From Maylandia zebra (taxonomy: Eukaryota; Chordata; Actinopteri; Cichliformes; Cichlidae): DNA of 64,000 bases. Location of the stretch: the NCBI RefSeq assembly GCF_041146795.1, contig NC_135187.1, positions 24,971,056-25,035,055 of the forward strand, written 5' to 3'. The position numbers and the translations under genes were made by a program. This document shows, one piece after another, positions 1,435 through 36,630 of this stretch; within the stretch, counting starts at the first letter, position 1, and every line of letters begins with the position of its first letter. Under the pieces are notes generated by a model, which saw only the letters and a program-made list of their open reading frames with translations, had not been told where the DNA came from and made no database searches.

Positions 1435-1642
1435 CAGTGGGGCAAAAAGTATTTAGTCAACCACCGATTGTGCAAGTTCCCCCACTTAAAATGATGACAG
1501 AGGTCAGTAATTTGCACCAGAGGTACACTTCAACTGTGAGAGACAGAATGTGAAAAAAAAATCCATGAATCCACATGGTAGGATTTGTAAAGAATTTATT
1601 TGTAAATTAGGGTGGAAAATAAGTATTTGGTCACCTCAAACA
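1435..1642 (+). repeat. Left inverted repeat of the Tc1-like element
   Basis: The outer binding-site-like motif is at about 1443-1460 and the inner one at about 1613-1632. Both contain AAGTATTT(A/G)GTCA in direct orientation. The repeat matches 1-208 in reverse complement. Confidence 0.9.
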
Positions 1643-1746
1643 AGGAAAATTTCTGGCTCTCACAGACCTGTAACGTCTTCTGTAAGAAGCTTTTCTGTCC
1701 CCCACTCGTTACCTGTATGAATGGCACCTGTTTGAACTCATCATCT

Positions 1747-1753
1747 GTATAAA
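1747..1753 (+). promoter_or_regulatory. TATA box of the Tc1-like transposase gene
   Basis: TATAAAA lies about 46 bp upstream of the transposase ATG and just inside the left inverted repeat. It is well placed to start a short-leader transcript. Position and match are seen; promoter use is inferred. Confidence 0.6.
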
Positions 1754-1798
1754 AGACACCTGTCCACAGCCTCAAACAGTCAGACTCCAAACTCCGCC

Positions 1799-2821
1799 AT
1801 GGCCAAGACCAAAGAGCTTTCGAAGGACACCAGGAAAAGTATTGTAGACCTGCACCAGACTGGGAAGAGTGAATCTACAATAGGCAAGCAGCTTGGTGTG
1901 AAAAAATCAACTGTGGGAGCAATCATCAGAAAATGGAAGACATACAAGACCACTGATAATCTCCCTCGATCTGGGGCTCCACGCAAGATCTCATCCCGTG
2001 GGGTCAAAATGATCATGAGAACGGTGAGCAAAGATCCCAGAACCACACGGGGGGACCTGGTGAATGACCTGCAGAGAGCTGGGACCAAAGTAACAAAGGT
2101 CACCATCAGTAACACACTACAACGGCAGGGAATCAAATCCCGCAGTGCCAGACGTGTTCCGCTGCTGAAGCCAGTGCATGTCCAGGCCCGTCTGAAGTTT
2201 GCCAGAGAGCACATGGATGATACAGCAGAGGATTGGGAGAATGTCATGTGGTCAGATGAAACCAAAGTAGAACTTTTTGGTATAAACTCAACTCGTCGTG
2301 TTTGGAGGAAGAAGAATACTGAGTTGCATCCCAAGAACACCATACCTACTGTGAAGCATGGGGGTGGAAACATCATGCTATGGGGCTGTTTTTCTGCCAA
2401 GGGGACAGGACGACTGATCCGTGTTAAGGACAGAATGAATGGGGCCATGTATCGTGAGATTTTGAGCCAAAACCTCCTTCCATCAGTGAGAACTTTGAAG
2501 ATGAAACGAGGCTGGGTCTTCCAACATGACAATGATCCAAAACACACCGCCCGGGCAACAAAGGAGTGGCTCCGTAAGAAGCATTTGAAAGTCCTGGAGT
2601 GGCCTAGCCAGTCTCCAGACCTCAACCCCATAGAAAATCTGTGGCGGGAGTTGAAAGTCCGTGTTGCTCGGCGACAGCCCCAAAACATCACTGCTCTCGA
2701 GAAGATCTGCATGGAGGAATGGGCCAAAATACAAGCTACTGTGTGTGCAAACCTGGTAAAGACCTATAGTAAACGTTTGACCTCTGTTATTGCCAACAAA
2801 GGTTATGTTACAAAGTATTGA
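1799..2821 (+). CDS. Tc1/mariner-family transposase, full length
   Basis: The product is 340 aa with no internal stop or frameshift. Residues 1-110 hold the paired-type helix-turn-helix DNA-binding region, with the basic SGAPRK stretch at 58-63 in the place of the GRPR/AT-hook motif. The DDE catalytic core follows: D153 in WSDET, D244 in FQHDND, E279 in NPIEN, giving 34 residues between the last two (DD34E). The numbering equals that published for Sleeping Beauty, and the C-terminus GYVTKY fits the family. It would bind the inverted repeats and catalyse excision and insertion at TA. The ATG at 1799 follows the TATA box and begins a typical MAKTKELS N-terminus. The gene is of the same broad group as the fish Passport and Sleeping Beauty transposases; the exact subfamily is unchecked. 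Confidence 0.95.
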
Positions 2822-2837
2822 GTTGTATTTTTGTTAT

Positions 2838-3037
2838 TGACCAAATACTTATTTTCCACCCTGATTTACGAATAAATTCTTTACAAATCCTACCATGTGG
2901 ATTCATGGATTTTTTTTTCACATTCTGTCTCTCACAGTTGAAGTGTACCTCTGGTGCAAATTACTGACCTCTGTCATCATTTTAGGTGGGGGAACTTGCA
3001 CAATCGGTGGCTGACTAAATACTTTTTTGCCCCACTG
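2838..3037 (-). repeat. Right inverted repeat of the Tc1-like element
   Basis: This is the inverted counterpart of the left repeat, with a few substitutions (for example GGCTGACTAAAT instead of GGTTGACTAAAT). The inner and outer direct repeats are both present. The transposase stop codon lies 17 bp before it. Confidence 0.9.
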
Positions 3038-3039
3038 TA

Positions 3040-4184
3040 TGTGTGCATGAGGGTGGGAATGCATGTTTGTGTCTGTGTGTGCCTGTTTGTCTGTGTCTAT
3101 ATGTCAGGTCGGGTCTTAGACTCCACCTCTCTGGGAACTCCCAGGCCCTCCAAGGCCTATCTCCCCTCACCACACTCCCTGCTGGTGACTGATGCCCCCA
3201 GGGGTCGGTGCATTGGTGGTTCTTGGTGTCCGGGGCTGGGCGCTCAGGTATGTACCAGCTCACTCCCGGTGGCTACCTGGCGGGGCCTGGCGCCTGTTGC
3301 TCGGTCAGGCCTCCTCTGGGGTGCGGGGGGCCCTCGGGCCTCCAGCCTCTGGGCCTGCGGCTCGGTTCACTCTGGCACAGCTGGCTGCCGGCAGAGCCGG
3401 CGGGCACGCCGGTGCAGCCCCCTCTAGCTTCTGCTCGGTGGCTACTGGGTGACGCCTCGTCTGGGGATCCTCAGCCCTTCCCATGAGGGTGGCACGGATG
3501 CCCCTCCGGTGGTCCTCCTTGGGCTCTCACTCTGGGGCCTCTGGATGTCTGGGGCCTGGATCTCCTCCATGCCTGCTTCATGCCCTGGGGGACGGGGCTA
3601 TGGCTCTCTACATCCTCTTGCAGACCATTACATGTGGAAACCATTTGAATACAAGCGCGCTGATCCACACAGGTGTGCACACGGGTGTTCACTGTTCATA
3701 AACTTAAATTATACCTTTCTTGGCTGCTACTTCAAAGCACATTGTGCGCTGTCTGTCCTGCGTGCTGCACAACAACATTGAATATTTAGTATTTACTGCT
3801 GTTTACACTTAGCTAGATTAATGCGATGGTGTTGTGTTTAGTATGTTGCTTTGGTTTTTTTGCTTGTTTTCTATTCTTTTTCTCTCAACAGGTGATCCAG
3901 AAGATTCCCCCCCCCCCTTTCTCACTGTCCCTCTCCCGTTCTGTTTTTCTTTTCCTTCCTTTTTCTTTCTCCCTTTCCTATCCCTCACTCATGTCTGTCC
4001 CGTCTGTAACAACTGAAAATAAAATAAAATAAATAATAAAAACAAAGGTCGATCAAATGGACCAATACGGCAATGCCACGATGATCCATTTGGCAAAATA
4101 AAGCCATTGGGTATCCTTGTTGGTCTTCGGACAACAATTCTGATGGCTAAAGAACCAAATGGGACAGGCAAAAAAAAAAAAAAA
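3040..4184. other. Non-genic repeat sequence ending in poly(A)
   Basis: From 3040 to about 3650 the GC-rich sequence interrupted by the Tc1 continues. Around 3890-4010 is a pyrimidine tract, then AAAATAAAATAAAATAAA-like runs near 4015-4040, and finally an A14 run at 4171-4184. The 3' A-tail suggests a retroposed unit on the plus strand. I cannot name the family and see no credible protein in it. Confidence 0.45.
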
Positions 4185-4990
4185 CACTATGAGGGAGCCC
4201 CACTGTGTTCAGGTTAAACCACTCATGGGCCAAGCCTATAGAGCTAGTCTCTCTGGGTGGGGGTGGAATATTTCCCCCCGTGCCTGAGACAGGAGGTCTC
4301 TGCGTAGTGGTAACGGCCAAAGTGGCTAAGTGCTTCCCTGGCCAGTGTGGGGCTATCAGGATCATAGAGTGACCTCTTTCTCTCACTCTGGCCAGAGTTG
4401 GAGAAATGAGGGCCACTGGGGGGAAAAGTATAGAGTAGGGTTATTGGCCACTCGTGAGCTAGAGCATCCACCCCCAGTGGAGCTTCCGGATTGTGCAGGG
4501 AGTAAAACAGGGGACAGTGAGCAGTCTCCCCAGATGCATAAATGTCCACGGTCGCCTGACTGAATCGCAGCCAGATCTTCTTCACCACCTCTGGGTAAAG
4601 CTTCCAGTCTCTGTACAGTGGGTTGCCCCTGGAGAGAAGATTCCCAGCATGTGAGTTGCTCTCACTGACAGCTGGTGAACACTGCTCCACACTATCAGTC
4701 TGTGTGCCAGTGTATGTAACTTGGGGGACCCCAGAACCCCCTGTCTGATGATGTAGGCCACAACCATGGAATTGTCCTCACTAAAACATGATGGCCCCCT
4801 CAGCCAAGGGAGAAACTGTTTTAGCGACCGGTGAACTGCCATGAGTTTCAGACAGTTTATGTGGGTAGAGCACATGTGAGGGCCCCATCCCCTGTTTACT
4901 GCTTTGCTTTTGTGGGCGGCCCCCCAGCACAAAAGAGAGGCATCTGTGGAGATCACCTTCTTGGCTGAAACTGCCCCTGAGACAGGAAAC
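4185..4990 (-). pseudogene. DIRS-type retrotransposon pol fragment (RNase H region), decayed
   Basis: Translation of the minus strand gives the RNase H-like region characteristic of vertebrate DIRS elements, spread over three frames. One frame has STDASLLCWGAAHK, HINCLKLMAVHRSLKQFLPW and VVAYIIRQG. A second has NLLSRGNPLYRDWKLYPEVV, CPLFYSLHNPEAPLGVDALA and LLYTFPPSG. A third has ISPTLARVRERGHSMILIAP. The order is correct along one strand, so two or more frameshifts have broken a single reading frame. DIRS elements replicate through RNA and integrate with a tyrosine recombinase; no recombinase is visible here. The recognition rests on family wording, not on a search. Confidence 0.8.
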
Positions 4991-5713
4991 CTGGTTTCTT
5001 CTACTTGTGGAGAGCGTGTGACATGTATTTCCTTAAATGCTGGTTCAGGACACGGAATCCAATGTCCTCAACACCCATGCTGACTAAGTACAGGTAGCCC
5101 AGCTCTTTATTCGGAGAGACAGAAGGCTCACTGGCCACTTCACCGATGATAGCGTGTTGGCATCCCCTTGTGGTTGCCGCGCGAAATATACGCCATCCCA
5201 GTTTCCCATCACCTCCCTTACCTGTGACAGAGGTGATGGGCTCGTCTGCATTATCATAACCGTGGAAACCCGAGTTTCCATATGCTGTGTTATTGCAGAC
5301 AGCATTGCTCTGTTTTTCAGCATGTTTGATTTTTTTCATGTGTTTACATCACTTGACAGCGCCCTTGGCAAACTGCCTGGATATGCGTGTCGGGAACTTT
5401 TTAATACAGAATGCATGAGAGAAACGCTTGTGAAACAACACTGCAAACTTTGGCTCTGTTTCCCTCTTGCGGGTCCAGTGACAGGAACGCTGGCCTGAGT
5501 TATGCACTCTGTGTCGAACATGTCTTGAACTTGCTCTGAAACAGAGCTGTGTGGAGGCAAAGCAGCCTGTGAAGGGGGGAAAGCTGGGCTAGCTCTCCCC
5601 TAGAGGAGAGGCTGTCAGGCAGGCCACTTCTTCTTCCTACTGGTCGCAACAGCATGAGGAGGAGGGGCCACTTGAGGTCTGGCCTGGGGAGACTGCTTCC
5701 TAGTCCAAGGATT
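4991..5713 (-). pseudogene. Probable continuation of the DIRS element, heavily decayed
   Basis: The stretch lies between the DIRS RNase H fragment and the inserted gypsy LTR. Near 5580-5710 the minus strand encodes a Pro/Gln/basic segment (RKQSPQARPQVAPPPHAVAT), compatible with the end of DIRS gag. Between 5000 and 5560 I cannot recognise reverse-transcriptase motifs, so that part may be another insertion or simply mutated beyond recognition. Open frames here are short and not convincing. Confidence 0.4.
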
Positions 5714-5867
5714 CTGTGATATCCTGAAACTAAGGAACCACAGAGACCATGTTGACCTCACAGTCACTTCTTTATTTATCAAACTGGGGCATGCGCAACA
5801 AATAAACTGGCACTGCTCTCCAACAACTGTTGCCCCGTGGAGGACAAATCCCTGCTACATTATAACA
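5714..5867 (-). repeat. 3' LTR of a Ty3/gypsy element
   Basis: On the minus strand a purine tract AAGGTGGGAGGAA (5868-5880) is followed directly by TGTTATAATGTAG. That is the polypurine-tract-then-TG arrangement expected at the start of a 3' LTR. An AATAAA signal occurs at 5771-5776, and the stretch closes ...ATATCACA near 5714. It sits about 130 bp downstream of the integrase fragment on the same strand, so it belongs to that element. The outer limit is inferred from the terminal CA. Confidence 0.65.
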
Positions 5868-5995
5868 TTCCTCCCACCTTAAACTGAAACTACCCTGTAG
5901 CTTTAATTACTACACAAAATACCCATTAAGAAAAACTTAACCTTTATTAAAATGTAACACAACCTCCTTCCCAGCCTTTACTTAAATTTCACTCG

Positions 5996-6905
5996 CTAAA
6001 TAATTAACCAATCCAACAGTCTTAGGTTATTCCTATAGTCTAATAGTCTATAACAGTTTAACATTACCACGTAGGAAACAGGCTCCATCATTTCCTGTCC
6101 TGGTATCCATTTGGGTCCCCCGCCATAGTTTCTGGTATATACTGTGTCTCCAATAACAAACATGCACTCCTTGGCATGTCTATGATGACACAGTCTTTGG
6201 CTATCCTGTTTTGTTGTCACTTTCTGTTTCAAGTCGAGGTGTTTGAGATCAAGTGTACACCTCAACTTCCTGCCCATCATCAACTCAGCGGGAGACTTCC
6301 CTGTTTTGGACGTTGGTGTGATTCAGTAACTATACAGAGCCCTGTTTAACTTGATTGCCACTGTGTCTCCAGTACTCTTTTTCATAAGTTCTTTGAAAGT
6401 TTGTGCCGCCCTTTCTGCTAACCCATTGAATGCTGGGTGATATGGAGCAGAGTTGACATGTGTGATGCCGTTCTTTGCCATGAACTCTTTAGTTTGTGCA
6501 CTTACGAAACACTGGGCATTGTCTGAGACCATTATTTCAGGAAGGCCATGTCGTGTGTACTGAAACAGTTTTTCAAGCAGTCAATGGTTGCAGCTAATAC
6601 AGCTGATGCCACTGAATACACATCTAACCATTTGGAGTGGGCATCCACTATTATTAAGAACATCTTACCCAAAAAAAGAGCCAGCATAATTTATATTTAT
6701 TCTCCTCCATGGCTTCTCCGGCCACTCCCAGGGGTGTAGTGGTGCCTCTTGAGGGCTGTGTCTATGTTCTTGACGTACCGCAGGATTTCACCTTGTCTTC
6801 AAGTCAGTCTCCATCTGTGGCGACCATATGTAGCTTCTGACCAAGCCATTCATGTGGCTCATTCCCAGGTGTGGATGATGTAGCTGTTCCAACAGGGGGC
6901 ATCGA
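5996..6905 (-). pseudogene. Ty3/gypsy integrase fragment, decayed
   Basis: In minus-strand order the region shows a remnant of the zinc-binding N-terminal part (LLEQLHHPHLGMSHMNGLVR, then a stop and frame damage). Next come the core start (KMFLIIVDAHSKWLDVYSVA) and the second catalytic region with MVSDNAQCF, GITHVNSAPYHPAFNGLAER and AAQTFKELM. The C-terminal part has MGRKLRCTLDLKHLD and VYTRNYGGGPKWIPGQ. The catalytic D (VDAH), D (SDNA) and E (GLAER) can all be placed. Stops and shifts separate the blocks, so no working integrase is made. The element is truncated at its 5' side and was probably inserted into the DIRS element that flanks it on both sides. Confidence 0.85.
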
Positions 6906-8009
6906 CCTCATTGTGGTATCACCACCCTAGCCCCCCACACCACACACCCATCCTACACACTCAGCTACTGTTGTCTCTGTCTGTAGGGCTTAAAATTAGG
7001 ATGCTGTGTTATGGGCCATTCTCTCAGAACATTCTCATGCACTCGGGAGAGTATGGGATCTTTGGTTGTCCACCTTTGTAGCTGCTCAGATGTCATCACC
7101 ACCCTGCTGCCAGCTCTTTAGGGGAGTTCTCTGGATGAGGAAGACTACTCAGTCCATCACGGCCAGGTAGGAGTGGCTGTGAAATTGAACAGCCTTCTAG
7201 CCGTCGTTCAAGTCCGCCCTTCTGCGTTTTTCTGGTCGCTGGCGCCACAGCACGAAAACTTTAAAATGGACACAGAAATGTTCCCCTGTTTTTTTGTACG
7301 TTTTTAATTTTCGAGAAGCTAGAAAAACTTTATCATTGTCGCTGGCACGTCTTGTACCTTAGGCTCATCAGACACGATCATACCCAGGTAAAATTATTTC
7401 CCTTCATCTACACACATTTAGGAATTACTTAGCTAGTTTCAATTATTACCAGTCATTCGTGCACATATATTGTATTATAAAAAATATATAAAGTAAATCT
7501 CTTTGAAACTTATGGAATTAATCTTTTGTTTTCTTTTTTTTACATGGCACTTTATCAAACTTTTGTCTGCTACAGAGTTACAAGTAATATAGTAGTAGTA
7601 ATATAGCATATAGGAGAGAGGGAATTAGGACAGGAGGCCTAATAGATAGCCTCTGTCCTATCACCTCATCCATGGGGGCAAACCAGGGCCAAGTTGCAAT
7701 CCCAATCACTCCCTCTCCTGACCCTGGATACTTGCAATCCTAAAGGCAGAGGAAATAAAAAAAAATACAGTAGGCAAATAAAAACAACACAAAAACTCTT
7801 AGTAATTGCACATTTATTAACTTGTGTTCTTAAGAATAATCTTCGTGATAACACACATACATACTTTGTATATTTTTTTAAGCTATCTCATTTCTTTCCG
7901 GCCTACAAGGGGGTCACTTTCTCCTGCAGGGCCACCTTCTCCAGAATTGTCCTGATCACATAACAAATAAGAGAAGAGAGTGAACCATGGCAACTTATTT
8001 TAATCCCTA
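6906..8009. other. Non-genic interval within mobile DNA
   Basis: No gene is supported. The part nearest 6906 may still belong to the gypsy element upstream of integrase. From about 7400 to 7900 the sequence is AT-rich with scattered simple runs. I cannot place a boundary between the gypsy remnant and the upstream DIRS portion. Confidence 0.35.
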
Positions 8010-11934: not shown

Positions 11935-13513
11935 ATGAATTGGAATTGGCTGGAGGACCTCATCAGTGGGGTCAACAATTACTCCACAGTGTTTGGTCGG
12001 GTCTGGCTCTCAGTGGTCTTCATCTTCCGGGTGATGGTGTTTGTGGTGGCGGCTCAGCGAGTGTGGGGTGAAGAGAGCAAAGATTTTGAATGCAACACTA
12101 AACAGCCAGGCTGCACCAACGTGTGCTACGACCACTTCTTCCCCATCTCCCACATCCGCCTGTGGGCCCTGCAGCTCATCTTCGTCACATGCCCGTCGCT
12201 GATGGTTGTTGCCCATGTCAAATATCGAGAGATGAAGGACTTAAAGTACACCACCACCCATGAGGGTAAACACGTGTATGCCCGCCCTGGGAAGAAACGT
12301 GGAGGGCTGTGGTGGACATACCTGGTAAGAATGAAGGGTGCTAATGTTTAATTCCACTGTTATTGTGTATGCCACACATGGAAGGAGATTTGCAATTATA
12401 ATGTATGAGCAACAAGCTCCACCAAACTGATGTGAAGTTGTGTGACTTTGCAAGAGTGGTCTACGATAATGCAAATTTTGGTATCTATCAATATCAAGTA
12501 TTGCAAAGACATTCAGATATTTTTCACAGTGTATGTCTGATGTATTTTTTTATTTCTAAATATATATATACTGAACTTAGAGGATAGAAACAAAGTACAG
12601 ATCATATCACCCTAGTATCGATCTGATACTGAAAGAAACTCTATTTTAAGTGGTTCTATGCTTTCAAGGCTTCCTTTAAACAGCCATATAATATATCCCT
12701 ACAGTGGAATGTGGGACTATTATGTCTGTAACATGGTGTCTTTTTTCTTGTCTTTAATTTCACTTTCATTTGCTGTTTAGAAACGTCTCTACCAAGTGTT
12801 CACTTTTGTTTTGACTGATTTTGGTAAATATCAGGAATTTTCATTATATAGTTTATAGAAGGTTGAAGAATCCTCATTTATGTTCCAATTTTTTCATAGG
12901 GTCATTTATTTATTTATTTTTTTAAACTAATTAATCGTCATAACAAGAGCTTAGACAAATGGTTGGGATAAGTTACAGCAATTAGTGAACATTTAAAATT
13001 AATTCTGTCAAACACAGTCATTAGCAATCCATGAGATTTTTCCTACTTTAACACTCATTTGTCTTCTTATAGGTGAGCCTGATCTTAAAGGCAAGCTTTG
13101 ATGCTGGTTTCCTCTACATCCTTTACCACATCTACGAAGGGTTCGACTTACCACGTTTGTTAAAGTGTTCAATGGATCCTTGCCCGAACATAGTGGACTG
13201 TTACGTATCCCGCCCCACAGAGAAGAAGATCTTCACTCTCTTCATGGTGGTGTCCTCTGCTGTCTGTATCTTGATGTGCATCTGTGAGATGTTTTACTTC
13301 ATCTGCAAGAAAGTCAAGAAACAAATCAAGAGGAAAATAGATGCAGACAGGCAGGCGTCCGCAGAGACACACGAGCTGAAGCCACTGTCAGCAGCTTTTC
13401 CAAGGCACAAGTCTAGATCATCTTTGAGAGTGGATCCAACAGTGTCTAACCACACTCTAGAAACTGTGACTAGAGGTTACTTAAAAAAGTTATGGCAACA
13501 AAGTGACACTTGA
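11935..13513 (+). CDS. Beta-type connexin, gjb3/gjb4-like, copy 1 (two exons, tail replaced by transposon)
   Basis: A gap-junction subunit of 276 aa from join(11935-12324, 13073-13513). Exon 1 ends at residue 130 (WWTYL|GTAAGA) and exon 2 begins after TTCTTATAG, phase 0. It has four membrane segments: about 20-40, 76-96, 129-150 and 184-207. Extracellular loop 1 has C53, C60 and C64 (CX6CX3C); loop 2 has C162, C167 and C173 (CX4CX5C), the six conserved cysteines of connexins. Arg75 is present. The [12 protein letters not shown] stretch and the second half (DAGFLYI, SRPTEKK) resemble GJB4/GJB3. Six subunits form a hemichannel that docks with a neighbouring cell. Residues 258-276 and the stop are encoded by the terminal repeat of the CACTA element that interrupts the gene at 13453; the original last 15 residues remain at 21519-21566. 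If the intron is retained, the product ends eight residues later at VRMKGANV. Confidence 0.92.
13453..13482 (+). repeat. Left terminal inverted repeat of the CACTA element
   Basis: About 30 bp matching the right end with a few mismatches. In the host orientation these bases encode the new connexin C-terminus beginning T-L-E-T-V-T. Confidence 0.85.
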
Positions 13514-14757
13514 AATAATTAAGTAGATTTTAATTTCAAAAGATTTATGTAAAATGTAGAGAAAATGTTAATTAAATTCAAATAGAAAACAAAAGTAGAT
13601 ATTAATAGAATTAAACTGTAAATATGTGTTGGATTTAGGGTCAAAATCTCAAACTGAAGGTTGAAATTGCCCAACTTTACCAAAAAAAATAATTGATATG
13701 AAATAAGTCTCTGAGAAAAATTACTTTGAATTTACTAACTATCTGGCAAAGGTTTAGTAAAAACTTCCTAAAATATCCATTACAAAGAAATGAAATCTTC
13801 TTGTTTTTTCAGTAAAACTCAAATTGGATTCAATAATTATCCAAATAAACCTTAAAAATAATGACTGAATAATAAGAGAAAATGAAATGAATTTTACTTA
13901 TTTTCTGAGTAAAATGAATCGATTTCACAAAGAAAACATCAAAACAGTAATTTGTTTTATTGTGGAAAATAAAACACAGTAATTTATAATATAACATTTT
14001 TCTGCTCGTATACACTGAATTCTCATCAACAATCTCCTGATCTCCTAAATACATTCCTCTGCTGTAAATTTGTTTTAGTGTCATAAACAGTTTATCACAC
14101 AGCTTTGTGTACAGAGCAACAGCAACATAAACTGCATGAATGTAAACCAGTTTTGTAAAAAAGAAATTAATCTTTAGACTGTAATATCAACATGAACCTG
14201 AAATTTGAATATCCTTTACCGTTTCCTTTATCTCTGTTACTTATTTATGATTGACTAACAAAAACTTTAGTTAGTCAATCTTTTGTTAAATTGAATCACT
14301 CAATATAACTGTAGAACAAAGGTTTTTCACTCATGTACATGGAATATCAATAATGTAAATCAACCTTTTATCCCAATTTGGATGTTTAACCTGAGAAAAT
14401 CTAAGACACATGTAAGAGGAAGTAACATTTCTACAGCTACAGGACTGCACTTCTGTTAAATTTTAAAGTTGTTTTAAACTAATATTTTATTGTAACATAC
14501 ACTATAAACAAAGAAAAGCTTCACTAGTGATTCCTCCAATTTGCTGCCTTTCAAACAGAATATTCCTAAGAAACTTGTAGGTAATAAAAAACAAACATTA
14601 AAATGAAGACCACAAATACAGCCTGACACATTGCAGGTCATTTGGGTAAGATATGAATAAGATGAAATTAACTTGAAAACTGAAAAGATAGCTGCATCTA
14701 ACAAAGACAAAGGTTTTCAGTGAGCTTACTTCCCTTTCATTCTTTCAGAGTCCTCGT

Positions 14758-17208
14758 TTAAGCCAATAACTTGTTCTTGAGGCTGTTCACTTTTGGTGAG
14801 AGCTTAGCACAATCCAGTTCAAGGAAAAGTTTCTGGAATACTTCCAAGGTGTATTTTAGCTCTTTGGGATAGGCAAGATCGACTGCATATGTCAATCCAA
14901 CCAGCATTGCGCATGCTCTTGGAAAATTGCCCAGAGCAGGCATAACTCTCACACCCTCCAGCACAATGCCAATGTCATCCTCCTCAGATCCAACAGCCTT
15001 GATTTTGTAGATTTTCATCCTCTGTTCAGAAAGATCTTGTGACACACCATCCTCATCAGCATCCTGAAACAACAAACACATGGGTTTCTGACTGTAGTTG
15101 CACACATGAAATATTTCCTGGACACATCCTGTAGCTGAATGACAAATAAAACATGATAATGCCTCAAATTATTTGAAACTTGACAAACACATATGAATAA
15201 CAAAAACAGAATAATGTTTCTACTTCAACACTTACACTGTACTCTTTGATCAGTTGATCAATGGACTCCCCAAGGTACACCATCAAGCACCGAATAACCA
15301 GATTTCTGGTTATGTTATTGCTAGGATTGCTTGGTGACTGAAAATGAGCAAGAATTCCAAAAATTACCATCAGATAAGTGACCATTTATTAAGACAAAAC
15401 TGTGAGAATTGGCAGTATTAAAAAAAAAAGTTAAATATCAAATTATCATCACATGGAGCATTATGTGCGATAATTAGCTGATGTTAATGCACATGCCTGG
15501 GTGCTGACAGTCAACACAAAGGTATTGTCAACATGCTTGTAAGCTTCAATCTTTAAATGTGTCGTTTTAGTAAATTACATTAATTTAGTCATTTAGTTTT
15601 TTATCTAATTTAGTTTATGTTTGTCAGAAAGGGTTTTTCCTTCTTGGGACAAAACAAAAACCCAGCAATACCTGTACTTGTGTTTTTTTGTTTGTTTTTT
15701 GTTTGTTTTTTTACTAAGAATAGACATGTATTTAAAATACAATTAAAACATGAAACCCATAATTGTGTTGTTAATTATATCAGTGACGTCCTGGCGTCCT
15801 CTTGCACTGACAAAAACATGCAAACAAATTAGTGGAGCTGTGCACCATGCAAATGAAATTTGACAAAAAAATTCTTTAAATAAAATTCCAAGCTGAAATG
15901 TCTGTGGAAAATACCTTGGCTATGATAGCCTGCAACTTCAATCCCATGGCTCCCCCCTTGGAATGGAAAAGGGCCAACAGTTTGGGAGTGTACTCATCCA
16001 GCATGGACATGAATTTGGGTTCAAGGTGTACCAGGGTGATCCTGTAGAACTCATCCTGCAGCTGAACGACAAAAAAAACCATGATGCAGCCTCAAATTAT
16101 TTGAAGTTTGAAAGATTACATTAAAAAAAACCAAAAGCCTACCCAAAATGAATTTGGAACTCACATGAGATGCCTCAAACAATGCTGGCCATCTGGCTTT
16201 GATGTCTTCAATGCTGGGGGACAGGTTGACAATTTCATGTCGTCTATGTGCAAATGTTTTAGCCATTTTTTCTTTTATCACTTTGTTGTTGTCTCTTTTC
16301 TTGACTTCAGTAAGCAACTGAATTCTCTCTTCTTCTTGACTGTCCTCATCTTCACCTGCTGGATATGGCGGAAGGTAATTTACCTCTGCTTTCCGAGGCT
16401 TTTTCACTTTATTTGCAGACTTCTGGTCACCTGGACTCTTGTGTTTCATGGCATTGCATGTCAACTCAGGAACACCAAACCCTCTAAGTTTTGTACGATA
16501 ATTGGCCATCTTGTATTTGATGCTTTGTTGCCAACCATAATAACCTGAGAAAGAGCCAGGTTCCTTGAGACAAGGGTATTTTGTCACAAGTGCCTCAGCA
16601 ACATAACTAACCTGTGCACTTGAAGGATAGGCCGTAAATGTAAATATAGTTTCAGCCAACTTCTCAAGAATATCAGTCTTTACTTTGGAGGTGGGCAGAA
16701 GATTTCCATTCTTTTTATACTCCTCAGTGGCTCTTTCCAGGTACATCTCAGTTTCATATGCAAACTGTGGAATGGGAAACTGTTTTGGCCAGGGCTCACA
16801 ACGTTCTGTGGTCTTCTGCCTTTTGAGAATAATGGTGTCCTGAGAAGAAGTAGTTGCAGCAGAGTCTGCATTGGATACAACTGACTCAGCATATGAGGAG
16901 TCATAGTCAGACAGTTGGCCAGAGGGGCCGCCAAAACTGTCAGCAACCGGAGTCAAGCTTATCATGACCGGGGTGATGCCAACAACCTTCACAGTGTCTT
17001 TGTCTTTTATCTGGTCAGCTCTGTGAAGAGTGAAGTAGTCCTGGAATTCTGGGTCAAAATACTGAAGACTGAAGTCATTTGAAATCCCAAAAGTATCCTT
17101 CACAACACTCTGCAGCTCCTCCAATGTTGGTGGGATCCCTGATGGAAGAACCAACTTCTCGATTTGGTCATCAATAATTACACGAAGCTTTGCCTCCATC
17201 TTGTTCAA
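14758..17208 (-). CDS. CACTA accessory protein with N-terminal PB1-like domain (SAMD3-like in fish annotations)
   Basis: Four exons in one frame: 17208-16165, 16055-15915, 15337-15236 and 15063-14758, together about 530 aa. Splice sites are canonical: donors GTGAGT, GTATTT and GTAAGT; acceptors CTGCAG, TTTCAG and TTTCAG; all introns are phase 0. Residues about 4-80 (AKLRVIIDDQIEKLVLPSGI ... TVKVVG) resemble a PB1-like ubiquitin fold. A Ser/Thr-rich linker follows, then a region rich in Trp and basic residues (FSGYYGWQQSIKYKMANYRT) and a C-terminal alpha-helical part. Similar proteins are widely labelled 'sterile alpha motif domain-containing protein 3-like' in fish, although I see no SAM domain here. 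Its location inside the CACTA repeats, next to and codirectional with the transposase, makes it the element's second gene, perhaps a DNA-binding or assembly factor comparable in role to plant TNPA. No inactivating change is visible. Start could be Met1 or Met4. Confidence 0.75.
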
Positions 17209-17413
17209 CCTAGAATAAAATGTAAATGGGCAGAGTTAAATTTCCCTTCAATTAAATAAAATTAGTTATTACTTTTCATTTATACAATAGTTGAGATATA
17301 AAACTATAAAACAAAAAGCACACTTCAACACACCAAATGTTGCAAATAACAAATACTTGGGAGATGTACATGTTATCAAGTTTTTGTTGTTGTCGTTTTG
17401 TTTTTTTTACCTA

Positions 17414-20059
17414 TTATTCACAGCAGATGTAACGTTTCAGGGTTACCAAGCGTTTTCTTCCCACATTGTAAGAAGCCAAGGGCCACATGTCACCAAGTTT
17501 CTGCTGCTCCAAAAGACTGATCTTGCCAGTGTCCTCCAGTTGAAAAGATCTCAGATGCTCTACATACCATGCAGCAAGTAACTTCACAATGAAATATACA
17601 CAATTGTCCAAAACGACTATCTGTATTATCTCAGCAAAGTCTGGTAGTCCACATGTTGAACCATTAGACAGGATCATCCCAGCAGTGTATCTTGTTCCAC
17701 TGTAGGTGACAGTGGTGGCAAGCTGCACACAAGTCAGAGATGGTGATCTTGCTCTTAAATCTGCCTGTATGTCTGGATGCAGCACATCTACAGGCATTCT
17801 GGATATTTTTGTGACAAGCAGGGCAGGTTTCACCTCTTTTGATTGCATGTGGTATGCCATCATCATTTGATGCCTTGTAGAAAGGGTCAGCAACACATTT
17901 TTGAAATTGTTAGTGTGTCTCACAACTTGCTTGAAAAATCTGTGTTTCGCCTCAAAGCGCATTGTCCATACTCCAACCAATGGCCCATATTTTTCTATTA
18001 CAGCAGGGTAGTGCTCCAAAAAATGATGTTTTGGTGTGAGCCTTTGATCAGGAAAAACTTCCAAATATCTGACACGATGTTCAGATGTTTTAAATTCAAG
18101 GTAGGCAATACTTTGTGTTGTGTGAACAGGGGCAACCACTAACTCAACAATGTCCTTCAAAGTCAGAAGAAGTTGCCAAACAGGATCATCTTCAGGTACA
18201 CGTAAACCAACAAGGAGAGGCAACAAACGTATTAGGGCCCAGTTTTCATGAGCATTTCCTCCTACAGTTTTGCGACCAGCAAAATTTGAAGGGATTGCTT
18301 GTGGACTGTTCAATTTGTCTGAGCCCTTATATGGAAAACATGTGATTATATTATTCAGTTCAGTCAAACTGAAGTAGTGCTTCTTCAAAAAAACTTGAAA
18401 ACACAATGCTAACTCTCTTGGCACTATTCCCTCAAAAAGGTCATGAAGGACATCTGGTGGGTATCCAGACACAAAGTGAAAATTATTAAGTTGATCAGTT
18501 AATGGACATGACCGCTTTAAGCCAAAATGAGGCACTAAATTTGGATTTTCTTTGACAGCTTGTACGTGTAAATCATAGTCATCCTTTTTTCGAAGTGGGA
18601 AGACCCCAGACCGTACTTCATATGTCTGGTACTCTGAAGAATGTCCAAGGCAAAATCTACAAACATATGGCCCGTTAAAACTTTCAACAAGTCCACTAAT
18701 TGCATGAGCACCAAGGTTATCAGCTACAACACAGTGTAGGGCGCCTTTAATATTTCTCCCTAAACATGAAATAAAAACCCCCTCCTGTTCAAGAGTGACA
18801 AGATCTTTCAAAAGTGGATCCAATACCAATCCAATCCAATATTCAAACTGTTTCACATCAACAGATTTGCAAAGTAAAGCTAGTTGTATTGATGTTAAGG
18901 CAGACTGTAATCTCAATGGCAAATTGGCCAAAACCTAATAAACTGCAGTTATTTTATGTTTTTTTCGAGAGGTTCCTAATGGGTTACACACCTCAAATTC
19001 ATCAACATAAATTATTATAGAGAGTCTTGTTTCTTCTACAGCATAAAAGTCATTGTCCTTAAAACACGTACCATCAAAAATGGACTCAAAATGCCCAGTG
19101 CTACTTGAGCACCTCGAAAAGGCTTCCACTGCAATATCTTTGTTCTTCAGTACTTCTTGCAAAGTCTTTAGAACTGGTACATATTGAAAGCTCTTTTTTT
19201 GTTCAGCATCAAGAATATATTCAATAGGATCCACAAACTGGAAATGCTCCTTAAAATACTTATTTCTCTTAAAAGCTGAACCAAGTGGCCCGCCTGCTCC
19301 AAGAGCTCTGCTAATGGGATGAGAGCTGCACAACTGTTCAGCCAAGTCCTTTATGATAGTGTGGTCAACTGTGCATTTGTTAGATTTCAGTGCTGAATCA
19401 ATTATATTTTTAACCGCCTCCACAGATGCTGAAGAAGAAATATAGAAGAGATCTTCAACCAAAGCATTAATGCACCTCACTGAAACATTGTAAGTGCTTT
19501 CTAACTTGAGTAGAAGTAAGCCAAGTCCTTGAAGAACAGTACAAGATGCACTTTCTGGATCAACATCACTAGAGCATTCATCACTGTTGAGTTCAGGGAC
19601 ATCAGAATGGTCAGTGTTCTGACTAGGATGACTTTCCAAGACTTCTTTCTTAAAATCAGTTAAGGAACAACATGTATGTCTCCTGCCTTTGTGCTTTAGA
19701 AATGTATTGTATATGTTTGTGCGAAAGTCACATCCATTAAAAACGCAAAATACAGTTTCGTGTCTCTTCAAGTGATTTCCTATATGCTGAAAATAGTCCT
19801 TCTGAGTAGAGCAAAAAGCAGTGCAAGCCAAACACTTAAATGCAGTGATCACTCCAGGCCTTGGACTCTCTTCAGTGGTATGGTATCTGGACAAATGTGT
19901 GCGAAGGGCTCCTTGTGTTTTAAATGTGCAAGGACAACTGCCATACAGACATGGCTGGTGCTGTCCACGACCAAATGTTGCGTGTTGCAATCTGTAATGA
20001 CGTAGAAGATTCCCCTTTGTAGTAGAAAAAGATTTGCATATCTTACACTGCCATCCCAT
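17414..20059 (-). pseudogene. CACTA-type transposase with C2H2 zinc fingers, one in-frame amber codon
   Basis: One frame runs 881 codons from ATG 20059 and is broken only by a TAG at 18937-18935 (codon 375). The first part holds about four C2H2 fingers: the first uses C5, C8, H21 and H26, with others in the CPCTF, FKCLAC and VFCVFNGC stretches. It also has an acidic linker with many Asp/Glu. The part after the stop has ADNLGAH, a C-rich RFCLGH segment, YPPDVLHDLFEGIVPRELAL and later RLTPKHHFLEHYPAVI, wording shared with EnSpm/CACTA transposases. The codon at the stop sits in a conserved-looking context (AVY*VLANLP) where a Trp would fit, so a single point change is the simplest explanation. 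An acceptor (CACTTTAG) just upstream of the ATG implies a 5' noncoding exon. As it stands the full transposase is not made without readthrough. Confidence 0.75.
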
Positions 20060-20379
20060 TTGCCAGGTCCTAAAGTGATGGAAAAATATATATCTAAGAA
20101 TCTAAATAGTTTTTCATGACAAATGTAAGAGCATGGGTATCTATACACATTTGATGTTGAGATTATAGAGAAGAAGAAAAAAATCCTACAAATAATAAGC
20201 AATTATTTTCTACTTATTGTTTTTACAAAAACAAATAAGTTAGATTAAGTGGGGTCAACTTGGTAATTTCATGCCGCTTCAATTTCAAAACCATTAGTTT
20301 AATTTAATATAACATGTTATCACAACTTACTTTATAATGCACAGTCTACATGCTGATCAGGTGAATTTAAGTTGAGGGA

Positions 20380-20535
20380 TCTTCCATTACCTGAAAGGAA
20401 AGCAACATTATCATTAATCTCAGCCAAACCGATTTACTCACGAACAAATAAAACACTGAAAAAAACCAAACAATGACATTTTTAGGTTGTCTAAGTGACT
20501 TATACATTACGTTTAAACTGAGTAGCGAAACCCCG
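20380..20535 (-). repeat. Segment shared with the hAT element of unit 2
   Basis: On the minus strand this stretch (GCTACTCAGTTTAAACGTAA, TATAAGTCACTTAGACAACC, TCAGTGTTTTATTTGTTC) aligns base by base with 29753-29900 on the plus strand, inside the hAT element. The homology spans about 150 bp with scattered substitutions. In the CACTA element it forms part of the 5' noncoding region of the transposase gene. Confidence 0.75.
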
Positions 20536-21240
20536 CGGTGATCTGAAAATGATGTGCCGGGAGTTGTGCCGTTCTCAGCGGCTTCAGTGACCCTCGAGCT
20601 CCCGGCTTGCTCGAGCTGGTGGGTAGCAGATGCTCCGAAAACGTCGAAGCACTTTTGCAAACATGCGATATCTTGATAAACCGAGCAGATATTTGATGTT
20701 TACACAGCTACTTTCTCGCCTGAAAATATGTTAAAAGTTTATTTTGTGACCCAGAAAGATTACTAAGAGTAATTTTAAAACTTAGTAGCGGCCGCCATTA
20801 TTGGAAACTGGAGTTCGAAAAACTGACTGTGGCTGACAAAATCACTCACAACTGACCGCAAAACCTTTTCATGAACTTTTAAACGTGGATGAAAGACGTT
20901 AAAACTCATCGGAATATACCGTTGATATTTTTTAATACGGTAAAACATGTGGTTAGTTAAAGCTGTTCAGTAACACAGTCATGAAGGCTTGGAAAGTGAC
21001 CTTGTGCTAGCAGTCCACTAACTGCCATTTATGTAAAAATACGATACTATCATTACAGTGATGATTATTAATAAAATTTCGTATCATACTGTTTAAAACC
21101 TTTACTCAAAACCGATATACGTTATTGTTTAAACCATGTCTTATATTTGAACAAATTAAGAAGTCTTACCTCTGACAAAATGGAGATGTCCACTCATGAA
21201 GCGCGTGTGTCCTGCACGTGGCACAAAGGATTATGGGCGG
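20536..21240 (-). promoter_or_regulatory. Probable promoter and 5' noncoding exon of the CACTA genes
   Basis: On the minus strand, near 21240, CACTTCCGCCCATAAT contains an ETS-type site. CACGTG (an E-box) lies about 25 bp further in. A GTCAGAG|GTAAGA splice donor follows at 21169. A second CpG-rich stretch covers 20515-20830. This looks like a TATA-less promoter with a noncoding exon spliced to the acceptor at 20070. Exact starts are unknown. Confidence 0.5.
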
Positions 21241-21488
21241 AAGTGTACAATGATTAAAATGAAAATGCTTTCATCAGTTAAATCTATTAGATTTCTTAAA
21301 TTTTTTTAGTACTCAAACATTTTTTTTAAATCTACTCAACAAACCATTGCTGAATTTACCCCAAACAAAACTGTGTAAATTTAAATAACTGAACATCTCA
21401 AAATTGTTGAATTTTGCTTAGATTTGATTAAAACTACTCATACACGTTTTTACTGAGTAATAATTACTATTACTCTCCTATTAGATTC

Positions 21489-21518
21489 TAATTAACCCCA
21501 ATCACAGTTTTTACAGTG
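21489..21518 (-). repeat. Right terminal inverted repeat of the CACTA element
   Basis: Reads inward as CACTGTAAAAACTGTGATTG, pairing with the left end. It is followed by the CA target duplicate and then the original connexin codons. Confidence 0.85.
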
Positions 21519-21566
21519 CAGAACCTGAATAACATCAAGACAGAGGAGACACCAACTATGAAATAA
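21519..21566 (+). pseudogene. Orphaned C-terminal codons of beta connexin copy 1
   Basis: Directly after the CACTA element, the target duplicate CA and the next bases restore the old connexin frame and encode [14 protein letters not shown] then TAA. This equals the tail of copy 2 ([14 protein letters not shown]) apart from the last two residues. The codons are now cut off from the gene by 8 kb. The 3' flank of the connexin continues after them. Confidence 0.9.
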
Positions 21567-22103
21567 GAATCATCTTGCTCGGGCTACTCTGAAAAACTAA
21601 ATGAATAACTCTAGGTGCTACTGGAAGCAAATGCATCCTTCCGACGGCTTGCAGAACTGTTACTCAACGACAAAGAAATACCCAGTGATTTGTAAATAAA
21701 ACTTTGTTATATGATATTCTGCATGGAAATCGACAGCAAAATTGCAGATGAAAAGGAAGCTATTTTTGAGTAATGATGCTTTATATGTGTATGATGTGTG
21801 TGTCTGTATTCATGTTTTTATGTAACCTTTTATGGTTACTGCCTGTCAGTTAGGAAAAGCACATGCTGTAAGTAAACCCTTTATTCACCAAAGCATTACA
21901 CACTGAGTCACTCACAAGTACTTTACAGTAGAGATACCCATATGATCCCGCCATATTTGTTCTGGCGTCATCCGTTTTTTCACGCTACCGTCCAATCAGA
22001 AGCAGAGGACACGGGTGCGGTTTTGATAGATAGGACAATGCACCAATGGTGAGCGGAAACCGGACGTCGTCATTTTTGCCCTTACGGACGCTGTCAAAAA
22101 GTA
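21567..22103 (+). promoter_or_regulatory. Connexin 3' flank and duplicated pef1 promoter (unit 1)
   Basis: The stretch matches 35812-36630 in unit 2. From about 21950 it contains the same promoter-like block: CCAATCAG near 21992, CACCAATGG near 22041, and GC-rich sequence with CpGs. In unit 2 this block stands just upstream of the pef1 start codon. Confidence 0.6.
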
Positions 22104-28091: not shown

Positions 28092-29752
28092 ATGGGGGTT
28101 TCAAAACAACTCTCAAATGACCTGAAGACAAAGATTGTTCACCATCATGGTTTAGGGGAAGGATACAGAAAGCTGTCTCAAAGAAAATGGAAGACCACTG
28201 GTTCAGTTCAAGTTAAGGCTCGAAGTGGCAGACCAAGAAAAATCTCGGATAGACAGAAGCAACGAATTGTGAGAACAGGCAGAGTTAACCCACAGACCAG
28301 CACCAAAGACCTACAACATCATCTTGCAGCAGATGGAGTCACTGTGCATCGTTCAACCATTCGGTGCACTTTACACAAGGAGATGCTGCATGCGAGAATG
28401 ATTCAGAGGAAGCCTTTTCTCCGCCCACAGCACAAACAGAGTCGCTTGAGATACGCTAAAGCACATTTGGACAAGCCAGCTTCATTCTGGAATAAGGTGC
28501 TGTGGACTGATAAAACTAAAATTGAGTTATTTGGGCATAACAAGGGGCGTTATGCATGGAGGAAAAAGAACACAGCATTCCAAGAAAAACACCTGCTACC
28601 TACAGTAAAATATGGTGCTGGTTCCATCATGCTGTGGGGCTGTGTGGCCAGTGCAGGGACTGGGAATCTCGTCAAAGTTGAGGGACACATGGATTCCACT
28701 CAGTATCAGCAGATTCTGGAGACCAATGTCCAGGAATCAGTGACAAAGCTGAAGCTGCACCAGGGCTGGATCTTTCAACAAGACAATGACCCCAAACACT
28801 GCTGTCGCGGTTCGAATTTTGAGGAAGAGACATACGACTGAAAGTCCGTAGTGGGTCAACACAAATGATTTTATTAAAACACATATATGTGGTGAAGATA
28901 GGCTCTGCAAAACATCAGGCTCCATCTCCCACCTGACAATAGGTGGGTGTGATATTTATACTATGATGACCAGTAACTCCAGCGAGTACATATTCTAAAA
29001 AGGAACTGCTACTTCCTCTGTTCCTCCAGATGCTTCCTGTTATTCTACTTGTCTAGACTTAAACAACACTTGCAATTAGTTTACCCAGACAGGCTATGTG
29101 TCTGTGTCATTAATCTAAGTGCATGACCCCCCTCTACGTCATCTGTTACCAGGCAAACTCCAGTGCAGCCTGCTGAATGCACACAGGCAATATGTAGTAA
29201 ATTATACTGTAAACATGTAGGCAACCTTTCAATAGCTGAACTTTGCTCCATTGATCGGCCAGACATCGCGCTGCCCGTAGCTTCAAACCATTAATTAACT
29301 TGACCGAGCTTCAACCCTTTAATTATGTAATATGTGTATAACATGATTACAGTTGCACCTGCAATGAAAGATTATGTGCTTATGCTAACACCTGAAATAC
29401 AGACTTTAATATAACATCACCAGTTTCAATAAATGTGTCAATGAAATGACAACAATGATAAATCATAAATGATGCAACAGTAATAATAAGGATCATGAAT
29501 AGTAACATAGATTATGAATGTAAAATAATATTTCATCTCGACACTGCTCAAATTCCACTAAGGCATTCATGCAGAGGAACAAGTACAACGTTCTGGAACG
29601 GCCATCTCAGTCCCCAGACCTGAATATTATTGAAAATCTGTGGTGTGAGTTAAAGAGAGCTGTCCATGCTCGGAAGCCATCAAACCTGAATGAACTAGAG
29701 AGGTTTTGTAAAGAGGAATGGTCCAAAATACCTTCAACCACAATCCAGACTC
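28092..29752 (+). pseudogene. Broken Tc1-family transposase
   Basis: The reading frame starts MGVSKQLSNDLKTKIVHHHG and covers the helix-turn-helix and catalytic regions up to QQDNDPKH at about 28799. There the solo LTR interrupts it. The frame resumes after 29543 with [20 protein letters not shown] and ends in EEWSKIPSTT before the truncation. About 20 codons seem missing in the DNA-binding part (GYRKLSQRKWKTTG is too short). The first catalytic motif is WTDKT, keeping D. The D and E of the other motifs are visible, but the protein cannot be made. Confidence 0.85.
28803..29543 (-). repeat. Solo LTR (741 bp) inside the Tc1 transposase
   Basis: The ends are TGTCG...CGACA and the flanks carry a 4-bp target duplication CTGC (28799-28802, 29544-29547). 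Read on the minus strand, TATAAATA near 28950 and AATAAA near 28870 occur in promoter-then-poly(A) order, so the LTR is oriented leftward. No internal retroelement sequence remains, as expected after LTR-LTR recombination. Confidence 0.85.
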
Positions 29753-34263: not shown

Positions 34264-35811
34264 ATGAACTGGAACTGGCTGCAGGCCCTTATCAGTGGGG
34301 TCAGCAATTACTCCACAGTGTTCGGTCGGGTCTGGCTCTCAGTGGTCTTCATCTTCCGGGTGATGGTGTTTGTGGTGGCGGCTCAGCGGGTGTGGGCTGA
34401 TGAAAGGAAAGACTTTGAATGCAACACTAGACAGCCAGGCTGCACCAACGTGTGCTATGACCACTTCTTCCCCATCTCCCACATCAGTCTGTGGGCCCTG
34501 CAGCTCATTTTCGTCACATGCCCGTCACTGATGGTTGTTGCCCATGTCAAATATCGACAGATGAAGGACTTAAAGTACACCACCACCCATGAGGGTAAAC
34601 ACATGTATGCCCGCCCTGGGAAGAAACGTGGAGGGCTGTGGTGGACATACCTGGTAAGAATGAAGGGTGCTAATGTTTAATTCCAGTTATGTTGTGTATG
34701 CCACACATGGAAGGAGATTAGCAATTGTACTGCATGAGCAACAAGCTTCACCACACCTCCAAACTGATGTGAAGTTGTATGTGTGATGACTTTGCAAGAG
34801 TGGTGGTATTTTGGTATCTATCCAATATCAAGTATTGCAGATGCAGATACCAAGATACTAATATTACCTACCTAAACTAGACTATAGAAAAATAGATGTA
34901 ACAGTCAGCACAAAAATGCTTCCAAACATTTCTACATATATACATATACTGAAATTAGAGGACAGAAAAAAAGTACAGATCATATCATCCTAGTATCAAT
35001 CTGATACTGAGACTAGCCTTAATTATCGATATTTGGAGAGAGCCCATCTCTATTTGCAGTCATTCGATTCTTTCTTCCTTTAAACAGCCATATAATACCA
35101 AATGTTCAGTTTGTTTTAACTGATTGTGGTTATTTTGGTATTTGGTAATATCACGAATCTTCCTTTTCTAGATAATCAGGATGAAGAGTCCTCACTTAGG
35201 TTACAAATTTTACATAGGGTCACTTATCTTTTTTTTTTTTTTTTGTAACTGGCTAAACATCATAATAAGAGCTTGAACAAGTGGCTGAGATAAGTTACAG
35301 TAATTACTGAACCTTTAAAATTTATCCTGCCAAACACAGCCATTATCAACTGAGAAATCACTTGGACTTTACTTTACTTTAACACTCATTTGTTTTCTCA
35401 TAGGTTAGCCTGATTTTAAAGGCAAGTTTTGACGGTGCTTTCCTCTACATCCTGTATTACATCCACGAAGGGTTCGACTTACCCCGTTTGTTAAAGTGTT
35501 CAATGGATCCTTGCCCGAACATAGTGGACTGTTACGTATCCCGCCCCACAGAGAAGAAAATCTTCACTCTCTTCATGGTGGTGTCCTCTGCTGTCTGCAT
35601 CTTGATGTGTATCTTTGAGATGTTTTACTTCATCTGCAAGAAAGTCAAGAAACGAATCATTGACAAAATAGATGAAGAGACTCGTGAGTTGAAGTCATCG
35701 TCAACACCTCATTCAAGGCACAAGTCTAGATCATCTTTGAGAGTGGATCCAACAGTGTCTAACCAGAACCTGAATAACATCAAGACTGAGGAGACACCAA
35801 CCACGCAATAA
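34264..35811 (+). CDS. Beta-type connexin, gjb3/gjb4-like, copy 2 (two exons)
   Basis: 265 aa from join(34264-34653, 35404-35811), with the same phase-0 intron after residue 130 as copy 1. The cysteines C53, C60, C64 and C162, C167, C173 are present, with four membrane segments and a basic C-terminal tail ending in EETPTTQ. Differences from copy 1 in the first exon include E7Q, D8A, N14S, G45A and R75S. Position 75, at the junction of loop 1 and the second membrane segment (HI[R/S]LWALQ), is Arg in nearly all connexins, and human Cx26 R75W/R75Q impair channels. Intron retention would again end in VRMKGANV. The gene lies about 0.8 kb upstream of the pef1 start on the same strand. Confidence 0.92.
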
Positions 35812-36630
35812 GAACCATGTTGCTCGGGCTACTCTGAAAAGCTAATTGAATAACTCCAGGTGCCACTGGAAGCAAATGAATCCCTCCTACTGCTTGCAAA
35901 ACTGTTGCTCATGGAAAACAAAAGAAGTATGCCGTGATTTGTAAATATTACCATGTTAAACGAAATTCAGCATGCATCGACAGCAAAATTGTGGGTCAAA
36001 GAGGAAGCTATTTTTTGTGCATGTATTCTGTGTCTGTATGAGTGTGTCTCTGTATTCATGCTTTTATGTAGCCTGTGCATCATTAGCCAATAGTAAATTG
36101 TGACTGGCCAAGCACAGCACGTTCTTGAACACAGTAAGTGGAGATGAAGAGATTTGAAGGAAATCTCTTTTATTCTTGCACAAGAACCATTGTCAACCAT
36201 AATGAAGTAAGACTACAGCTATTATAGTTTGTTTTAAATGATGAGGGGGTGGGGTTGTTGCAATATATAAAGTTTTTTCACTGTTAAATGTTTGTGTATG
36301 TGTCTGTTTTCATGCATTTCACAATTATCAAGCGGTTACCAGGTCAGTTGGGAAGACTACATGCTGTAAGTGAACCTTATATTCACTTTAGGATTACACG
36401 CTGAGTCACTCACAAATTACTTCACAATCGGCTTCACACAAAGCTTTACATATGACCCCGCCTTACTTGTTCTGGCGTCATCCGAGTTTCCACACTACCG
36501 TCCAATCAGAAGCAGAGGACACGGGTGCGGTTTTGATAGATAGGACAATGCACCAATGGTAAGCGGAAACTGGACGTCGCCGTATCTGCCCTTACGGATG
36601 CTTCGTTGTAGGAAGTAAAGGCTGTCAAAT
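35812..36630 (+). promoter_or_regulatory. pef1: Connexin 3' flank and pef1 promoter
   Basis: The proximal part (about 36470-36630) has CCAATCAG near 36502 and CACCAATGG near 36551, CpG-rich sequence and no TATA box, typical of a housekeeping promoter. A TGACGTAA CRE-like site lies downstream in the first intron near 36741. No strong polyadenylation signal for the connexin is obvious. Confidence 0.6.

Follow-up and report, generated by a model that had tools for sequence, protein, structure and literature searches.

Insertions of Tol elements into coding exons of medaka pigment genes abolish the function of these genes. Transposons of the EnSpm/CACTA type and their relatives have CACTG...CAGTG termini, make a short target-site duplication and encode a transposase of the DDE class, in which C(2)C and H(3-4)H motifs separate the second D from the E; fungal EnSpm families are described in the same source as generating a 3-bp target-site duplication (PMC12730594). 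In maize A2, the termini of a dSpm insertion are reported to act as splice sites (Menssen et al. 1990, as cited in PMC4219821). The main text of a paper on zebrafish EnSpm-N6 (PMC3485254) holds nothing on terminal sequence or target site. For teleost connexins, PMC7066803 served as orientation. Among the papers listed by literature searches, titles and abstract openings yielded no report of a transposon-coded connexin tail or C-terminus. A paper on a NUMB exon (PMC6778778) was considered as a precedent and rejected, the term 'EnSpm' having matched Ensembl lamprey accession numbers. Here, we describe a recent and fully resolved entry of a CACTA-type element into a vertebrate coding exon, which replaces no more than the C-terminal end of a predicted channel protein.

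The window, a 64-kb stretch of a 962-Mb Maylandia zebra genome assembly, contains two tandem connexin genes that lie about 22 kb apart (start to start) and have two coding exons each. Exon 1 of copy 1 (codons 1-130; 11935-12324, plus strand) is an open frame that ends at the donor CTG|GTAAGA. The last coding exon of copy 1, as it now reads, extends from 13073 to 13513 on the plus strand and is native up to 13450. Copy 2, the uninterrupted comparison gene, is translated from exon 1 at 34264-34653 and exon 2 at 35404-35811 (both plus strand), its tail being continuous, and has a product of 265 amino acids. Exon 2 of copy 1 matches the Pfam Connexin family (E 1.4e-28). Among proteins of solved structure, the top relative scores E 1e-77 and beta-1 and beta-2 connexins come next; most of the high-scoring relatives are beta connexins (Cx26 and Cx32). 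The core of copy 1 is complete and contains all six loop cysteines in the arrangement CX6CX3C and CX4CX5C (spacing read from the translation), in line with an earlier claim that all four membrane segments and both cysteine loops are spared by the insertion.

Both copies carry a coding-region intron after codon 130 (12325-13072 in copy 1). Three other connexin paralogues (L069-L071) show the matching region as one open frame. The paralogue on C19 (L074) lacks an intron after codon 130 but has two apparent introns elsewhere, bordered by GT..AG, one following codon 57 and one inside codon 158. From these gene structures, repeated gain or loss of introns seems to have occurred in this branch of connexins. 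Within the copy 1 intron, the segment 12504-12644 matches a dispersed repeat found in at least 38 other places at 69-92% identity, with 40 of 136 candidates scored. A third connexin of the alpha type, GJA4-like by eye, occupies 56741-57868 on the minus strand in a single exon.

The last coding exon of copy 1 is interrupted by an element of 8,066 bp (13453-21518), whose genes lie on the minus strand. Both junctions can be read directly. The left junction is ...GTCTAAC CA | CACTCTAGAAACTGTGA... (13451-13453) and the right junction is ...TCACAGTTTTTACAGTG | CA GAACCTG... (21518-21521). Junction reading and family comparison identify the flanking CA dinucleotides (13451-13452 and 21519-21520) as the two copies of a target-site duplication. 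The connexin frame crosses the left junction through CAC, a histidine codon composed of the two duplicated bases and the first base of the element, and continues for 19 element-coded codons (57 bp, 13454-13510, read on the plus strand) to a TGA at 13511-13513. The displaced native codons of copy 1 are stranded beyond the element at 21519-21566 (plus strand), where they translate into 15 residues followed by the stop. As assembled, copy 1 has thus exchanged 15 native residues for 20 new ones, of which 19 are purely element-coded, and measures 276 amino acids as against 271 without the insertion. Rejoining the flanks at the duplicated CA restores an open frame of 271 codons that is collinear with copy 2 save for one 6-codon gap in the tail. 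Direct translation therefore confirms what the preliminary description had read from this locus, namely a connexin frame that enters the left end of the element and runs through 19 new codons to a TGA, a second CA followed by the old codons on the far side, and a second gene copy that represents the uninterrupted form.

The element is bounded by inverted repeats, the left at 13453-13478 (plus strand; 17-bp arm computed, about 26 bp by eye) and the right, which has the standard sequence according to an inverted-repeat search and copy comparison, at 21493-21518 (plus strand). The 17-bp arms are 88% complementary and begin with CAC(T), as CACTA/EnSpm elements require; other copies of the family have CACTG...CAGTG termini. 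A genome search with the left junction gave at least 26 places, including the insertion itself and connexin copy 2, and a search with the right end gave at least 32, of which 30 right-end loci were compared. At 27 of these 30, a recognisable end finishes in TACAGTG and is followed by CA, TA or TG; the other three (L033, L037, L038) have no recognisable TACAGTG end on either strand. All eight copies compared at both ends show 2-bp duplications, five of CA (the connexin insertion included) and three of TA. Since terminal repeats and 2-bp CA or TA duplications recur at unrelated sites in 7/7 other copies compared at both ends, a chance explanation of the junction is excluded.

Within the element, the transposase frame (17414-20059, minus strand) contains D353, D447, C467-C470, H678/H679-H683 and E703, along with a C2H2-like N-terminus below the Pfam cutoff. 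These motif positions (D353, D447, C467/C470, H678/H679 with H683, and E703) are identical in 23/23 aligned rows; the alignment includes the element's own copy twice and 20 distinct sequences, and 8 of 31 sequences in which this region has two or more stops were excluded beforehand. A second frame of 385 amino acids (16051-17208, minus strand) has a weak PB1-like N-terminus, likewise below the Pfam cutoff. Neither of the window's two transposase ORFs matched Pfam Transposase_21 (tnp2) or any other transposase family above cutoff. Among seven relatives, Transposase_21 was matched in five (E 0.016-0.13, all below cutoff), Plavaka in three and DUF4218 in two, these also below cutoff. A search for transposase relatives in viral contigs gave one pattern match and no confirmed case. 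The termini, the duplication and the catalytic motifs together support the earlier assignment of the element to CACTA/EnSpm, a classification drawn from sequence features.

Searching the genome with the transposase gave at least 86 matches, at least seven of them at 98-100% identity, the element's own copy included. Nine copies of the family (L010-L013, L015-L018, L023) share an internal deletion from about element position 2496 to 6962 and are about 3.8 kb long; judging from this shared structure, they represent a non-autonomous derivative that has recently spread. Transposons of another type are also present in the window. An element at 1439-3040, of Tc1/mariner type by the look of its protein, has an open frame of 340 amino acids and inverted repeats of about 200 bp that are 97% complementary; a further repeat arm lies at 1-203, and the element looks recently active. 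A second Tc1-type transposase frame, recognised by eye at 28092-28841, is shorter (249 amino acids).

The left terminus of the connexin element deviates from that of its family. It reads CACTCTAGAAAC where the standard is CACTGTAAAAAC, and differs at 13457 and 13460 from 7/7 other copies. Both changes are private to this copy and both alter an amino acid of the new tail. The standard 24-base end, CACTGTAAAAACTGTGA, occurs exactly at 21 places in the genome and the altered end, CACTCTAGAAACTGTGA, at one; CACTGTAAAAAC with the next 12 bases is also present in copies whose right ends are about 10% different from that of the connexin element. This qualifies the earlier view of a tail encoded by the terminal repeat: an in-frame, element-coded tail is indeed present, but its 57 bp are longer than the inverted repeat and reach subterminal DNA, and a nonstandard terminus is what is translated. 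The transposase frame is also damaged, by a single in-frame TAG at 18935-18937 that is private to the connexin copy and absent from the six other close copies covering this column. Together, the stop and the two terminal changes suggest a stranded element that is unable to leave easily.

The plainest cause of the two terminal changes is damage to the terminus in a failed excision, although they may also stem from selection acting on the tail or from a wrongly assembled base. Two unexpected bases within 8 bp of the left junction could raise the suspicion that the junction itself is an artefact of assembly or polishing. We regard this as extremely unlikely, given that the two junctions are consistent with the duplicated CA and with the collinear old 3' end, and that an empty allele would supply, as judged by eye, just one of the two bases observed at the altered positions. 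A more specific scenario is that the element had a standard terminus when it entered and that a later event at its left end, such as error-prone repair after an aborted excision, altered the two in-frame bases, immobilising the element and setting a permanent, evolving C-terminus in one step; we consider this sequence of events unlikely. Very unlikely, in our assessment, is an adaptive exonisation, in which the tail coded by the terminal repeat was kept, and its first codons changed, for a useful connexin property. It is true that each of the private changes in the terminal 8 bp replaces an amino acid and that two of the element's 24 private substitutions fall close together (P 2.7e-4 for the first 8 bp, P 0.015 for the translated stretch of about 60 bp), but the test is post hoc and involves two changes, and terminus damage in an aborted excision predicts the same cluster.

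The private substitutions also bear on the age of the insertion. The connexin element carries 24 of them in 7,581 columns, counting those in which three or more other copies are represented (0.32%). Five fall in one indel block (18827-18839), leaving 19 without it, so that 19-24 is a fair range. Compared with a dS of 0.175 between the two connexin copies, this range places the insertion far later than the connexin duplication. The count is an upper bound on age, as some of the substitutions may predate the insertion. Assumed substitution rates of 3-10 x 10^-9 per site per year give an age of at most about a million years. Private rates in the other copies are 0-0.27% in 16 of 19 and 0.33, 0.43 and 2.63% in the remaining three; the insertion need not be among the very youngest, because its 0.32% exceeds 16 of the 19. 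By this sequence comparison, the element appears to belong to a recent burst in the genome without being its youngest copy.

A young insertion limits what can be learned from the reading frame. At 0.3% divergence, the connexin frame would remain intact without selection with a probability of 0.72 (assuming an indel rate of 10% of substitutions), and because an intact frame is thus expected in any case, the open frame is uninformative on function. The length of the new tail is equally unremarkable. An open run of at least 19 codons starts at a fraction of 0.38 of the positions tested in the element, and the idea of a tail of special length was rejected on this ground. Between copies 1 and 2, dN/dS is 0.175 over 213 codons of the core and 0.90 over 52 codons of the tail. 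Exchange of the last 15 residues is likely to be easily tolerated, because the tail evolves fast and the intron-bearing C19 paralogue has a quite different C-terminal end. With the C19 paralogue as outgroup, five protein changes are assigned to copy 1 and ten to copy 2, with 13 undecided, so faster protein evolution of copy 1 was also rejected. The suggestion in the preliminary description that this is transposon exonisation caught in the act is not borne out by the youth of the insertion, the probability of a neutral open frame, the frequency of open runs and the dN/dS of the tail, and neither is selection on the new tail.

One part of the tail stands out. Across the empty site, the two connexin copies share an identical sequence of 73 bp, although their tails differ elsewhere (13400-13452 joined with 21521-21540, compared with the copy 2 tail within 35690-35840). 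This probably reflects gene conversion before the insertion, as far as the alignment can tell. Such identity could also arise if precisely this segment of the tail were constrained, but gene conversion is favoured because the synonymous sites are identical too.

What becomes of copy 1 would depend on how its RNA passes through the element. Poly(A)-like AATAAA motifs occur within the element at 13844 and 13968, and the simplest path for the RNA is to read into the element and be polyadenylated there. If the element were instead removed as a new intron, via sites in or near the terminal repeats, the old tail would return with a few residues gained or lost. Maize A2 is a reported precedent (cited in PMC4219821), and ten donor-acceptor pairs put the last codons of the old tail back in frame, for example 13476 with 21517. 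The frame-restoring sites are weak, however. Scored with a vertebrate weight matrix, no donor in 13380-13600 exceeds the 87th percentile among the GTs of the window, and the acceptors that restore the frame (21517 and 21522) reach the 91st-92nd, against 99.3-99.4 for the connexin's own splice sites; the stronger acceptor at 21485 (96th percentile) occurs in none of the ten pairs. In addition, the G of the standard terminus ACT|GTAAAA is changed in the connexin copy, although this site is poor as well (71st percentile). Splicing of this kind is quite unlikely in our view.

We slightly favour a recent, near-neutral CACTA insertion, with a predicted element-tailed copy 1 channel if the gene is transcribed; near-neutrality is most likely, as opposed to adaptation. 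The sequence at the site shows that a CACTA/EnSpm transposon jumped into a CA dinucleotide among the codons for the cytoplasmic tail in one member of a tandem pair of beta-type connexin genes. If copy 1 is transcribed, the simplest product would consist of native residues 1-256 and a 20-residue element-derived tail ending at the TGA at 13511-13513, and the new tail is probably disordered. The mRNA would probably end either after read-through or at one of the poly(A) signals that the element provides (AATAAA, 13844 and 13968). We infer that the insertion has persisted because it hit a fast-evolving part of the protein and because an intact sister gene lies 22 kb away.

Copy 1 might just as well have fallen silent when it was cut off from its native 3' end. 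A dying gene is a real, if less probable, possibility, in which the insertion has removed the native 3' end and poly(A) site, so that transcripts are unstable or the channel is misrouted by its tail, and the function rests with copy 2. The presence of a closely similar intact sister gene is consistent with this, and decay after so recent an insertion would not yet show in the frame. On the other hand, the core is complete, and copy 1 has no stop or frameshift upstream of the insertion, for which reason a pseudogene by upstream frame damage was rejected; nor would an ordinary stop in a last exon trigger mRNA decay. As it stands, the locus represents an ordinary, recent and probably near-neutral insertion. 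Its value lies in the intact sister gene 22 kb away, which provides a built-in control: if copy 1 is expressed, the pair would make it possible to test directly what a recently acquired, transposon-coded tail does to trafficking and turnover.

Compared with described members of CACTA/EnSpm (the CMC group), the connexin element is alike in the CACTG...CAGTG termini of its other copies, in its short duplication and in a transposase of the form D-D-[C(2)C, H(3-4)H]-E. It differs in its altered left terminus, in the stop in its transposase frame and in Transposase_21 matches that, among its relatives, stay below cutoff. Its family generates duplications of 2 bp (CA or TA, 8/8 copies), whereas the fungal EnSpm families described in PMC12730594 generate duplications of 3 bp. 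CACTA insertions in plant genes, among them dSpm in maize A2, likewise place an element of the same superfamily within a gene whose product depends on RNA passage. In contrast to the A2 insertion, where the element termini reportedly act as splice sites, the connexin element offers weak candidate sites and a predicted read-through into the tail.

Among beta-type connexins (the GJB group), copy 1 is typical in its complete core with CX6CX3C and CX4CX5C loops, and differs in the coding-region intron after codon 130 and in its element-coded C-terminus. The medaka Tol insertions resemble the connexin element as recent cut-and-paste entries into a coding exon. Whereas those insertions abolish function, only the last 15 residues are exchanged in connexin copy 1.
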